Below, piece by piece: positions 19,930-55,938 of a stretch of 58,564 bases of DNA; within the stretch, counting starts at the first letter, position 1; each line of letters begins with the position of its first letter. The notes under the pieces were generated by a model that saw only the letters and a list, made by a program, of their open reading frames with translations, made no database searches and was not told the DNA's origin. The DNA comes from Gammaproteobacteria bacterium (GTDB lineage Bacteria > Pseudomonadota > Gammaproteobacteria > SURF-13). Both the position numbers and the translations under genes were made by a program. The stretch lies in contig JAUXUQ010000009.1 in NCBI GenBank assembly GCA_030680605.1, positions 1 through 58,564 of the forward strand. Reading direction: 5' to 3'.

Positions 19930-20286
19930 ACGGTTGTCACCGCGGGCCTGCACCTGCGGGCGTGACTCCAGCTCCTGCAATGCAAACGGCTTGACCAGAT
20001 AATCATCCGCCCGCTGTCGAGCCCCTTGAGCTTGTCCGGGAGCGTATCACGCACAGTGAGCCTCAGAACCGTGGTGGATTTGCGCCCGTCATGGCACAGT
20101 TTGCGGCAGATCTCGGTGCCTGTCAGCTTGAGATCAAGCACGATAGCGTCGTAGTTATTGACAACCGCGAAATGCAGGCCTGTGACACCATCACCGGCGG
20201 TGTCTGTGACATGTCTCCTCGCTTGCCAAGGAAGTCGCGAACATTAGCTGCGATATGGGGTTGTCTTCTATAATCAGGACGCGCAT
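19930..20286 (-). pseudogene. OmpR-type response regulator, receiver-domain remnant with frameshifts
   Basis: From the ATG at 20286 the minus strand reads MRVLIIEDNPISQLM. After a frame change it reads GDGVTGLHFAVVNNYDAIVLD and CRKLCHDGRKST...TVRDTLPDKLKGLDSG. After a second change it reads ADDYLVKPFALQELESR. These are consecutive receiver-domain motifs, including the phospho-acceptor Asp and the conserved Lys. The DNA-binding domain and any sensor kinase are gone. At least two frameshifts, with part of the first helix region missing, show that the gene is dead. Confidence 0.8.
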
Positions 20287-20342
20287 GTTTACCCCGCATG
20301 CGTGTTACCCATGCAGGCGGGGCGAGCGCCCAAGCCCAAGCG

Positions 20343-20356
20343 TATAGTTAACTATA
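20343..20356. promoter_or_regulatory. Perfect 14-bp palindrome before the YyaL-type gene
   Basis: TATAGTTAACTATA lies 19 bp upstream of the ATG at 20376. It may be an operator or just an AT-rich promoter element. The start is preceded by AAAAGG. Confidence 0.4.
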
Positions 20357-20375
20357 AGGTAGTACGAAAAGGTCA

Positions 20376-22436
20376 ATGACCATGACAGCTCCGTCCGTAA
20401 ACCGGCTGGCCCATGAAACCAGCCCCTATTTACTACAGCATGCCCATAATCCGGTGGACTGGTATCCATGGGGGCAGGAGGCGTTGGCACGTGCACGCCA
20501 TGAGGACAAGCCGATATTGCTATCGATTGGATATTCCGCATGTCACTGGTGTCACGTGATGGCGCATGAGTCATTTGAAGACAGTGCCACGGCTGCTGTC
20601 ATGAATGCGTTATTTGTGAATATCAAGGTTGATCGCGAGGAGCGCCCTGACCTTGACCGCATATACCAGGAAGCCCACCGCCTGCTCAACCGGCGTGGCG
20701 GCGGTTGGCCGCTCACCATGGTGCTTGCCCCCGACAGTCGCACGCCGTTCTTTGGGGGTACCTATTTCCCGCGTGAGGCACGCTATGGGTTACCAGCGTT
20801 TGCGGATCTGCTGCAACGCATCGCAGGCGCCTGGCAAGACCAGCGTGACGAGATTGAGGCGCAAAACAAGACTCTGCTGGCGGCGCTTACAGTAGTTCCG
20901 ACACAGTGCGGGCAGGTGCAACTCAGCGCGGCACCACTGGCAGCCGCACGGCAGCAGCTGGGGTCGAGTTTCGATGAGCGTCACGGCGGCTTTGGTGCTG
21001 CGCCAAAATTCCCGCACCCACCACACATCGAGCGCCTGCTGCGGCATCAGGCATACAGCAGCGAGCCGGATCCTGAGGCGTTGCACATGGCCACCGCCAC
21101 ATTGCAGGCGATGGCGCAGGGCGGCATCTACGATCAACTCGGTGGCGGTTTCTGTCGCTATGCAGTCGATGAACGCTGGTTGATTCCACACTTTGAAAAA
21201 ATGCTGTATGACAATGGCCTGCTGCTCGGGCTTTACGCACAGGCTTACGCACGTACACAGAATGACTTGTTCAAGCGCATTGCCATAGAAACCGCGCGCT
21301 GGGTAGTGCGTGAGATGCAGGCCGCCGAGGGCGGCTATTACTCCGCGCTCGACGCCGATTCGGAAGGTCACGAAGGGAGGTTTTACGTATGGACGCGGGA
21401 GGAGGTGCATGCCCTGCTGGATGAGCAGGCGTATGAGGTCATCGCGCGCCGCTTCGGGCTGGATCAGGCGGCCAATTTTGAAGGCAATGCCTGGCACTTC
21501 TACGTGGCGGAGGACAGCACCGCCATCGCGCGCGCTTTGAATTTGACCGAAGCACGGGTGGCGGAAATTATGGAGCTGGCGCGCAACAAGCTATTCACCG
21601 TGCGCGAGGCGCGCGTGCGCCCCGGGCGCGATGATAAAATTCTTACTGCGTGGAGCGCGCTTATGGTCAAGGGCATGGCGTTGGCAGGGCGTCTACTCAA
21701 TGCGCCTGCGTGCATCGTCTCTGCTGAGCACGCCCTCGACTTTATTCGCACTACGCTCTGGGTCGATGGCCGACTGCTTGCCACCAGCAAGGATGGCCGT
21801 GCCCATCTGTCGGCCTATCTGGATGATTATGCATTTCTGCTGGATGCGCTGCTCGAGATGTTGCAGGCACGCTGGCGCAGCAGCGATCTGCATTTTGCGA
21901 TCGAGGTGGCCGATGCCATGCTGGCGCATTTCAGTGACAAGGCGGATGGCGGATTTTTCTTCACGGCGGACGATCACGAGCAGCTGATTCAGCGGCCCAA
22001 ACCGTATGCTGACGAGGCGACACCGTCCGGCAACGGCATTGCGGCCCAGGCGCTGGGGCGACTGGGCCATCTGCTGGGGGAGCCGCGCTATCTGGAGGCC
22101 GCCACGCGCACGCTTGAATCTGCCTGGGGGGAGATTGTGCGCATGCCCTACGCCCATGGCACCTTGCTCAGCGCGCTGGAAGATCATCTGTCACCGCCGC
22201 AGATGGTGATTCTGCGCGGCGATAGCGAGGCTATGCAGCCATGGGTGGAGTATTGCCGGGAAAATTACGCGCTGCGGCGACTCTGCTTTGCCATACCTGC
22301 TACCGAACAAAATCTGCCCGGCATACTGGCGCAGCAGTGTGCGGATACAGGCGTCACGGCCTATGTGTGCGAGGGCGTAACGTGTTCGGTGCCGCTTAAA
22401 ACGCAGGCGGCGCTGGCGGCAAGGCTGGCGCTATAG
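20376..22436 (+). CDS. YyaL/SSP411-family protein with thioredoxin-like domain
   Basis: This 686-residue protein starts [21 protein letters not shown] and has the family's [20 protein letters not shown] (CxxC at about 53-56), [13 protein letters not shown] and [12 protein letters not shown] in a thioredoxin-like domain (about 5-165). It is followed by a large all-helical (alpha6/alpha6-like) domain with [28 protein letters not shown]. The family is widespread; its biochemical role is unsettled. The stop overlaps the convergent PfkB gene's stop. Confidence 0.93.
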
Positions 22437-40317: not shown

Positions 40318-40866
40318 CTAGGGCGCGGTGTAAAGCTTGTCGCGCACGATAAACAGCGCGGCGATGGAGCGCGCCTCGGTGCATTCCGGATGCGCGAGCA
40401 ATTCTCCGAGCTGCGACAAGCGCCACGGTATGACTTCAATCGGCTCCGGTTCATCACCCACCAGTTTTTGCGGGTAGAGATCTTCCGCCAGCACTACGTG
40501 CGTGGTGTGGTTGAGATAGCCCGGCGCCAGCGTCATGGAGGTGATGTGCCTCAGGCGGCGGGCGCCATAGCCGACCTCTTCCTTCAGCTCGCGGTCGGCG
40601 CCAGCAAGCAGATCTTCGTCGGGTTCGAGGCGGCCCTTGGGCAGTGCCAGTTCGTAGCGTCCTGCCCCTGCGGCGTATTCGCGGATGAGCAGCACGGTGT
40701 CGGCGTCGAGCATCGGCACCACCAGCACCGCGCCACGCGGCGCGCTGTGCAGGCGCTCGTACTGTACCTCAACGCCGTTGGAAAAGCGCAGGTCTACCTG
40801 CTCGACGTGAAAGATGCGCGTTTTGGCCAGGGTTTCGACGCGCAGAATCTCCGGTGTTTTAGGCAT
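40318..40866 (-). CDS. nudE: ADP-sugar/ADP compounds pyrophosphatase, NudE-like
   Basis: This 182-residue Nudix hydrolase has a complete Nudix box G-x5-E-x7-REL-KEE-VG (GRLEPDEDLLAGADRELKEEVG, stated in pieces: GRLEPDEDLLAG and RELKEEVG). The text matches NudE-type enzymes (hydrolysis of ADP-ribose, NADH, Ap2A). It is convergent with the SDR gene. A repeat and hairpin region lies upstream of its start. Confidence 0.88.
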   Translation of the reverse strand: MPKTPEILRVETLAKTRIFHVEQVDLRFSNGVEVQYERLHSAPRGAVLVVPMLDADTVLLIREYAAGAGRYELALPKGRLEPDEDLLAGADRELKEEVGYGARRLRHITSMTLAPGYLNHTTHVVLAEDLYPQKLVGDEPEPIEVIPWRLSQLGELLAHPECTEARSIAALFIVRDKLYTAP

Positions 40867-40881
40867 GCGCCCATCATACTC

Positions 40882-40904
40882 ATAAGTCAGTAAGTAAGAC
40901 TACA
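40882..40904 (+). repeat. Dispersed repeat, left half (copy A)
   Basis: A 23-bp segment (ATAAGTCAGTAAG... to ACTACA) with one mismatch to 55851-55873. The continuation is not here but resumes at 41060, so copy A appears split by the hairpin block between. No function is known. Confidence 0.65.
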
Positions 40905-40922
40905 CTTCCCGTTGCGTCCCCG

Positions 40923-41018
40923 CCCCTGTTTAGGGGTGAGGCCGTGAAACGGCCGAACGCCAAGCCAGGACGGCTTGGCTGGACTTTTGCGCGGGGCATG
41001 GATAGCGCAGCGCAAAAG
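40923..41018 (+). ncRNA. Array of four hairpins, two with GGA in the loop (copy A)
   Basis: Four stems follow each other: CCCCT/AGGGG (40923-40936), GGCCGT/ACGGCC (40940-40954), GCCAAGCC-AGGAC-GGCTTGGC (40959-40979) and CTTTTGCGC/GCGCAAAAG (40984-41018; loop includes ATGGAT). Perfect stems this dense suggest a structured RNA or a palindromic repeat element. GGA-in-loop is the CsrA/RsmA site type (established); a sponge RNA is a guess. Located between nudE and amt; could also be part of the amt leader. Confidence 0.5.
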
Positions 41019-41053
41019 GGGGCAGGGTGGGGGTAGAGTAAACAGGGTTTTTA

Positions 41054-41122
41054 CTCAGGAGTCACAGCATTATTGTTGTAGCTTTATTTACTGGCTCCTG
41101 AGTAGCAGTGTGGCGCCGCCGG
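41054..41122 (+). repeat. Dispersed repeat, right half (copy A), with an inverted repeat
   Basis: AGTCACA (41060), TGTAGC (41077), CTCCTGA (41095) and GCGCCGCCGG (41113-41122) recur in the same order and similar spacing at 55873-55938. CTCAGGAG (41054-41061) also pairs with CTCCTGAG (41095-41102). Confidence 0.5.
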
Positions 41123-41215
41123 TTCGACTTTTAGGGAGTCCGGCCTTAGAATTACGGGCTTAACGTGCTCGCAATGGGTGTGGGGCAGGATAAATCAGTG
41201 ACAGCGGGGGCGGGA

Positions 41216-42412
41216 ATGGAGAGTTTGCAGTCGGGCAGCGATGTATTGTTTGTCTTGGTCGGCGCCGTGATGGTGTTGGCCATGCATGCCGGTTTTGCCT
41301 TTCTGGAGGTGGGGACGGTACGGCACAAGAACCAGGTCAACGCCCTGGTCAAGATCATCTGTGATTTCGCTGTTTCCACTATTGCCTATTTCTTTATCGG
41401 CTACGGCGTGGCCTATGGCGTGTATTTCATGCAGGGAGCAGAAGAGCTGGCGGCGAAAAACGGTTATGAGCTGGTGAAGTTTTTCTTCCTGCTCACGTTT
41501 GCCGCCGCCGTGCCTGCCATCATTTCGGGCGGCATAGCCGAGCGGGCCAAGTTTAACCCGCAACTGGCAGCGAGCTTCGTGTTCGTGGCGCTGATCTACC
41601 CGTTCTATGAGGGCATGGTATGGAACGGCCATTACGGCGTACAGGACTGGCTGGCGGCCACCTTTGGCGCCAGCTTCCATGACTTCGCCGGCTCGGTGGT
41701 GGTGCACGCGATGGGCGGCTGGATGGCGCTGGTCGCAGTCGTGCTGCTGGGCGCGCGCCGAGGGCGTTACGGCAAGGACGGGCAGGTGTCCATGCATCCG
41801 CCGTCGAATATCCCCTTTCTGGCGCTGGGCGCGTGGGTGCTGACCGTGGGCTGGTTCGGCTTTAATGTCATGTCGGCCCAGTCGGTCGCGGCGGTGAGCG
41901 GGCTGGTGGCGGTGAATTCGCTGATGGCCATGGTAGGCGGCATACTGGCGGCGCTGTTCATCGGCCGCAACGACCCCGGCTTTGTGCACAACGGCCCGCT
42001 GGCCGGTCTGGTGGCAGTGTGTGCGGGCTCAGATATCATGCACCCGCTGGGTGCGCTGGTGACCGGGGTGCTGGCCGGTGCGCTGTTCGTCTGGACGTTC
42101 ACGCTGACGCAAAACAAATGGAAGATTGATGATGTGCTCGGCGTGTGGCCGCTGCACGGGTTGTGCGGCGCGTGGGGCGGCATCGCGGCAGGCATTTTCG
42201 GGTTGGAGGCGCTGGGCGGCCGTGGTGGGGTCAGTTTTACCGCGCAGTTGATCGGTACGGCAGGCGGCGTCGCGATCGCAGTGATTGGCAGTTTTGTGGT
42301 GTATAGCGTGCTCAAGAAAGCTGTCGGGCTACGCCTCAGCGCGGAAGAGGAGTTTGCCGGCGCTGACCTCAGCATACACAAGATCGGCGCTACCCCTCCC
42401 TATAATGATTAA
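41216..42412 (+). CDS. amt: Ammonium transporter
   Basis: From the ATG at 41216 (MESLQSGSDVLFVL) it has 398 residues; earlier GTG (41165) and ATG (41174) starts exist, but the family text starts here. It has about 11 membrane segments, the twin His in FHDFAGSVVVHAMGG and PLHGLCGAWGG, and ISGGIAERAKF. There is no N-terminal signal peptide, and no glnK gene lies beside it, although Amt and GlnK are often paired. Confidence 0.94.
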   Translation: MESLQSGSDVLFVLVGAVMVLAMHAGFAFLEVGTVRHKNQVNALVKIICDFAVSTIAYFFIGYGVAYGVYFMQGAEELAAKNGYELVKFFFLLTFAAAVPAIISGGIAERAKFNPQLAASFVFVALIYPFYEGMVWNGHYGVQDWLAATFGASFHDFAGSVVVHAMGGWMALVAVVLLGARRGRYGKDGQVSMHPPSNIPFLALGAWVLTVGWFGFNVMSAQSVAAVSGLVAVNSLMAMVGGILAALFIGRNDPGFVHNGPLAGLVAVCAGSDIMHPLGALVTGVLAGALFVWTFTLTQNKWKIDDVLGVWPLHGLCGAWGGIAAGIFGLEALGGRGGVSFTAQLIGTAGGVAIAVIGSFVVYSVLKKAVGLRLSAEEEFAGADLSIHKIGATPPYND

Positions 42413-55825: not shown

Positions 55826-55850
55826 ATAACTCTGGAACTCTTGATTACTG

Positions 55851-55938
55851 ATAAGTCAATAAGTAAGACTACAGTCACACCCTGAAGTAATGTAGCCTTG
55901 CTTTGTGACTCCTGATTAACTCAATAAAGCGCCGCCGG
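55851..55938 (+). repeat. Dispersed repeat, uninterrupted (copy B)
   Basis: An 88-bp intergenic element whose left 23 bp match 40882-40904 (one mismatch). Its right part shares AGTCACA, TGTAGC, CTCCTGA and GCGCCGCCGG in order with 41060-41122. Internal inverted repeat: AGTCACA (55873-55879) with TGTGACT (55904-55910). Confidence 0.6.

Follow-up and report, generated by a model that had tools for sequence, protein, structure and literature searches.

A three-hairpin unit that was probably added repeatedly, at one position, to copies of a TA-inserted MITE, one of which lies between nudE and amt

The window, by which we mean the whole stretch of 58,564 nucleotides analysed here, contains the NudE gene on the minus strand (40318-40866) and, on the other side of the element described below, amt, an ammonium transporter gene whose start at 41216 was assigned from start-region conservation. 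The gene named slyD in the original prediction encodes an FKBP-type peptidyl-prolyl isomerase, and a GGDEF-EAL protein is also encoded among the neighbouring genes. It had been proposed that a dispersed repeat is continuous beside slyD and split beside amt, with a hairpin block of about 155 bp lying exactly between its two halves. The match between the two loci was confirmed by comparison within the window, both for the left part (40877-40904 versus 55846-55873, 26 of 28 bases, E ~1e-6) and for the right part (41060-41104 versus 55874-55918), which had an alignment score of 12 when the best of 2000 shuffles reached 7.5. The spacing of about 155 bp beside amt and the hairpins within it were likewise real. 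However, the two halves beside amt proved to be mutually inverted repeats, that is, the ends of a single 228-bp MITE with the end sequence TACTCAKRAGTCA, and much of the supposed block was ordinary MITE sequence: the stretches 40905-40936 and 41018-41059 are also present in ordinary MITE copies, and the true surplus at amt is only the 81 bp from 40937 to 41017 (Table 1). The sequence GCGCCGCCGG at 41113-41122, considered as a further part of the repeat, lies outside the element, which ends at 41104, and with four occurrences in the window it was attributed to chance. The right end of the MITE (41052-41104) is in itself a 53-bp hairpin with TACTCAGGAGTCA tips, and in relatives such tips frequently occur in pairs with a spacing of about 40 bp, so that a shorter stand-alone element may exist.

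Table 1. Positions in the window of the MITE copies, their parts and the likely amt promoter
Feature	Position	Strand	Description and evidence
Long-form MITE between nudE and amt	40877..41104	+	228 bp including one TA per end; inverted arms, empty TA site in L056, homologous copies
Element proper of the amt MITE	40879-41102		TAs left out
Left terminal inverted repeat	40877..40904	+	28 bp including TA; complementarity to 41077-41104 of 79%; also conserved in further copies
Right terminal inverted repeat	41077..41104	-	28 bp including TA; inverted-arm search and copy census
Internal inverted copy of the right tip	41052..41064	+	TACTCAGGAGTCA; pairs with 41092-41104
Remnant of the central C-run/G-run palindrome	40918..40936	+	CCCCGCCCC-TGTTTA-GGGG; copy alignments and variant list
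Inserted three-hairpin unit	40937..41017	+	81 bp; independent dispersed repeat family; missing from every other MITE copy of its own genome; covariance model R1; covarying stems
Hairpin 1	40940..40954	+	GGCCGT-GAA-ACGGCC
Hairpin 2	40959..40979	+	GCCAAGCC-AGGAC-GGCTTGGC; invariant GGA loop, covarying stem
Hairpin 3	40984..41018	+	CTTTTGCGC...GCGCAAAAG; apical loop with GGA
Likely amt promoter, downstream of the MITE	41124..41152	+	TCGACT - 17 nt - TAGAAT; largely kept in empty-site relatives
MITE copy downstream of slyD	55846..55918	+	73 bp, internally deleted; window match, copy census, C10 alignment

In a relative of the same genus (L056, genome G001) nudE and amt are adjacent and the site is empty, reading CCATAATAGCAGTG with a single TA. 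The filled site in the window reads CCATCA-TA-element-TA-GCAGTG. The single TA of the empty site, compared with a TA on both sides of the element in the window, indicates that the element was inserted whole, at TA. Two further clean pairs of filled and empty sites, again with one TA when empty, were found (L250 versus L177, and L220 versus window positions 20149-20551), and insertion at TA with duplication of the TA was seen at three loci including amt. The presence of a flanking TA in 70 of 70 copies was not used as evidence, being circular since the query itself starts and ends with TA; the empty sites were used instead. A target-site duplication at 40905 and 41059, the limits of the supposed block, had been suggested as a check on its movement, and no direct repeat was found there (AGACTACA|CTTCCCGT versus TACTCAGG|AGTCACAG). 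A second same-genus relative (L057, 3781-4070) contained an unrelated hairpin insertion, CCGCAGGTTGCTGAAAAAC..GTTTTTCAGCAACCTGCGG, between nudE and amt and a few bases from the MITE site.

Searching the whole genome to which the window belongs revealed MITE copies or remnants at seven other places. The fuller of these contained both ends and the sequence adjoining the supposed block, but without the 81-bp hairpins. The MITE was abundant in two genomes of the same genus (G001 and G002, about 76-80 first-look candidates each) and in one of the same family (G004, 62 candidates), and few were found in G003 (far fewer candidates), all of these assemblies being fragmented MAGs. In the copy-rich genomes only top-ranking candidates were retrieved, scoring being confined to the best 40 each of G001, G002 and G004. 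Among 122 distinct copies with both ends recognisable, collected over six genomes, 103 measured 146-154 bp, nine 225-231 bp, three 173-174 bp and one, that of slyD, 73 bp, the lengths being taken from fetched DNA with some ends extrapolated. The element is short, multicopy and without a transposase gene, its modal length being too short to encode one. The three copies of 173-174 bp (L198, G002:C53:3462; L169, G002:C35:11056; L229, G001:C2:469) shared an additional block of another sequence, AGAGCCTRCCCCCGGCTTGARCGGGGGG, immediately 3' of the central palindrome, which is a second kind of internal addition.

Apart from one gap of about 77 bp, the copy beside slyD was almost the same as the C10 copy, and because of this one-gap alignment we regard it as a deletion; no other of the 122 copies had the 73-bp form. 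Since BLAST detected no MITE near slyD in G001-G004, there was no direct ancestor of the slyD copy for comparison. The case advises caution, as a repeat copy that is shorter and looks "continuous" can have arisen by deletion and not be the ancestor.

The three hairpins of the surplus unit were supported by covariation. In an alignment of ten unit copies, 13 of 24 pairs had changed on both sides with pairing kept, a number reached in none of 500 shuffles, and slid controls went down to 2-4 pairs. The loop CA(N)GGA of hairpin 2 remained constant while its stem varied. Of 274 class genomes sampled, 28 contained the unit according to the covariance model; its matches numbered about 29 in G003, 25 in G004 and 18 in G005. 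The amt copy was the sole one in the window, where no second copy was found by BLAST, hairpin scan or covariance model. There was no relevant match to the unit in Rfam even at a permissive E-value, and no literature on this exact three-hairpin unit was found with the search terms tried.

The unit was also found in relatives without the MITE repeat, which partly contradicts the original prediction. Its other host palindrome is a non-MITE repeat, CCAAAGGGG-AGAGCTGCACTT-CTCCCCTTTGG. Empty copies of this palindrome (CCAAAGGGGAGA..CTTCTCCCCTTTGG) numbered 21 in total, in G001, G002, G003 and G005, and filled ones with both halves kept around the unit were seen at L261, L264, L270 and L280. The unit also stood 3' of G-runs in other C-run/G-run hairpins (L258, L191), and in 60 of 68 cases the matched unit began with GGG. 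The palindromic repeat of 32-33 bp, CCAAAGGGG..CCCCTTTGG (e.g. G001:C15:51134-51165), had 21 copies in these four genomes, and its exact pattern was absent from the window's genome. In a second setting (L272, L277) the unit came directly after a repeated piece of a tRNA 5' end (...TAGCTCAGTTGGG-TGAG...), and the intact tRNA itself followed. One unit follows such a copied 5' end before tRNA-Arg (L272, G000:C12:89694), and tandem units do so before tRNA-Thr (L277 and L282, G000:C2:134215-134425); these look like the outcome of repeated insertion at the tRNA D-loop or of tandem duplication. In two genera (L278, G001:C1:21272; L327, G004:C1:260767) the unit was observed at what is apparently the same gene end, ITGRYG, where it supplies the stop codon (GGG-TGA-G); the gene is presumably PstB-like.

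Short MITE copies have an intact central palindrome (CCCGCCCCCTGTTTAGGGGGCGGG). At amt its 3' arm GCGGG is absent and the hairpin unit occupies the spot, standing in place of about 4 bp (GCGG) that short copies keep. No clean target duplication was found around the unit; a few bases were replaced instead. If a long copy were to lose the unit by deletion, GCGG would not come back, and the short MITE was therefore taken to be the older state. In G004 the unit was found at an identical position in seven long MITEs, whose inserts had a mean identity of 97.3% (46 mismatches over 1680 positions) and whose bodies were 87.7% identical on the left and 88.8% on the right (355 mismatches in 3036). For three pairs of copies with identical inserts the contrast between body and insert gave p < 5e-4. 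When the unit was left out, several long bodies were very close to short copies, some with 98-99% identity: L045 differed from the short L189 at 2 of 147 positions and L049 from the short L187 at 3 of 144, while between the amt copy and a short copy of G001 (L050) 7 of 147 differed. Four loop variants beside the junction occurred among long copies, and all four were also present among short ones. Between genera the insert was conserved no better than the body, so selection or slow evolution does not explain the uniformity of the unit. The histories of unit and body thus disagree at an identical junction, which indicates that several MITE lineages, already in existence, each received the unit at exactly the same position. 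The central palindrome is supported as a preferred landing site of the unit. The earlier suggestion that the repeat is a preferred target therefore survives in altered form, for the 81-bp unit and the seven G004 MITEs and not for the boundaries that had been given.

Taken together, we assign a probability of roughly three in four to an account with two repeats. A MITE of 146-154 bp with 28-bp inverted ends, dispersed in this bacterial family, inserts at TA and duplicates it, presumably moved in trans by an IS630/Tc1-mariner-type transposase, as suggested by the TA target and the empty sites. The amt copy reached its place between nudE and amt as a whole, and the slyD copy later lost about 77 bp of its middle. 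The three-hairpin unit of about 80 bp would place itself after the G-run in G/C-rich palindromes and, in relatives, would have been added many times over to different MITE copies, always at the same position. Site-specific insertion most simply explains these additions at one position; we infer it, perhaps with recognition of single-stranded hairpins by analogy with REP/RAYT and IS200/IS605-type systems, in preference to very short conversion. On the two-repeat account, this is a clean natural case of one small repeat colonising another repeatedly at a fixed nucleotide. Empty sites, short copies and unit-holding copies are all available for it, and the mobility of non-coding hairpin units, which is usually guesswork, becomes testable by comparative genomics.

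Other explanations were weighed against this account. That a 155-bp hairpin block moved into a repeat still intact at slyD would agree with the continuous slyD copy and the interrupted amt copy, but both halves are missing from the empty amt site and 103 of the 122 copies contain the 74 bp that form the flanks of the supposed block; together with the lack of a duplication at 40905/41059 this leaves the movement proposed in the original prediction with hardly any credibility, and the whole copies of other build (146-154 bp) also speak partly against it. An alternative with a single entry of the unit into a MITE, followed by transposition of the whole long composite to amt and elsewhere, has in its favour that position and orientation of the unit are the same in both genera and that MITEs of two sizes are known, as in the 107- and 155-bp elements of Neisseria (PMC2229807). 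It must, however, contend with the strong mismatch of divergence between bodies and inserts in G004 and with the short copies that are the closest relatives of several long bodies, and we consider it improbable. In a further alternative the unit, after a single entry, spread between MITEs by gene conversion via MITE homology, the tracts measuring about 100 bp. The unit version borne by MITEs in G004 was not found outside MITEs there, so that spread by conversion also fits, as do the exactly identical junctions. Such tracts would nevertheless need to stop very near the unit, within about 6 nt on its left and about 14 nt on its right (e.g. in L049), since the neighbouring variants follow the short siblings; we therefore regard conversion as unlikely, while giving it some weight.

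It was also considered that the unit is kept for its action as RNA, for example as putative CsrA/RsmA-binding hairpins, and that its presence in the MITE is selected and not a by-product of mobility. CA(N)GGA loops were found in 64 of 68 units when about 20 were expected from shuffles, the CsrB repeat CAGGA(U/A/C)G and the SELEX consensus RUACARGGAUGU fit some of the unit loops (PMC7652899), and the stems covary. On the other hand, with the likely amt promoter situated 3' of the element, the amt mRNA need not include the unit, and the motif would also be part of conserved family sequence for any other reason. An RNA function as the cause of retention thus seems doubtful. The unit resembles CsrB/RsmZ-type sRNAs in having GGA motifs in hairpin loops and differs from them in not being a single sRNA gene.

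Returning to the favoured account, in which MITE and unit are separate repeats, we compared both with known systems. The TA-targeting MITEs ERIC, RUP and NEMIS have a standard behaviour like that of the amt element (PMC2229807). The element is like ERIC, RUP and Correia/NEMIS in its size below 250 bp, its inverted ends, the TA at both ends with duplication, the lack of a gene, the intergenic location and the foldable RNA, a likeness of layout and not of aligned sequence, and its length differs from the 127-bp ERIC consensus. As with NEMIS, there are two size classes, the longer with an additional block in its interior (PMC2229807); unlike in NEMIS and the others, that block belongs to a dispersed repeat family of its own, which also occurs outside the MITE and was added to it more than once. 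A transposase was found neither for the three-hairpin unit nor, with ends to match, for the MITE: a search with PF13358 in five genomes, as fragmented assemblies, led to one gene, in G004, with flanks unlike the MITE ends, and this IS630 partner candidate was rejected.

Similarly, REP units stand inside palindromes, some families of which also occur empty, the filled state including Halothiobacillus neapolitanus (PMC3733652). The unit is comparable to REP/REPIN/BIME as a dispersed set of hairpins within palindromes that also exist empty, and it differs from REP in having three unlike hairpins over about 80 bp and no GTAG/CGTC tag at the foot of hairpins 1-3, as read in 40937-41017. In single-strand transposition of the IS200/IS605 type, elements with hairpins near both ends are inserted 3' of a short fixed sequence and no target duplication arises. 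The unit is similar by mechanism in these three respects and differs in that a few target bases are replaced and no HUH protein is linked to it in the present case. It is conceivable, though speculative, that the unit stands for an unnamed class of mobile element that homes to the G-runs of palindromes (including those of MITEs) and to tRNA 5' ends, lacks inverted ends and target duplication, and scatters CsrA-type GGA hairpins.

With regard to the adjoining genes, the predicted amt promoter follows the element and is similar in both relatives, so that amt may be little affected by the insertion. The opposite end of the MITE is located about 10 bp before the nudE start codon, and the nudE leader or promoter has for this reason probably been changed.
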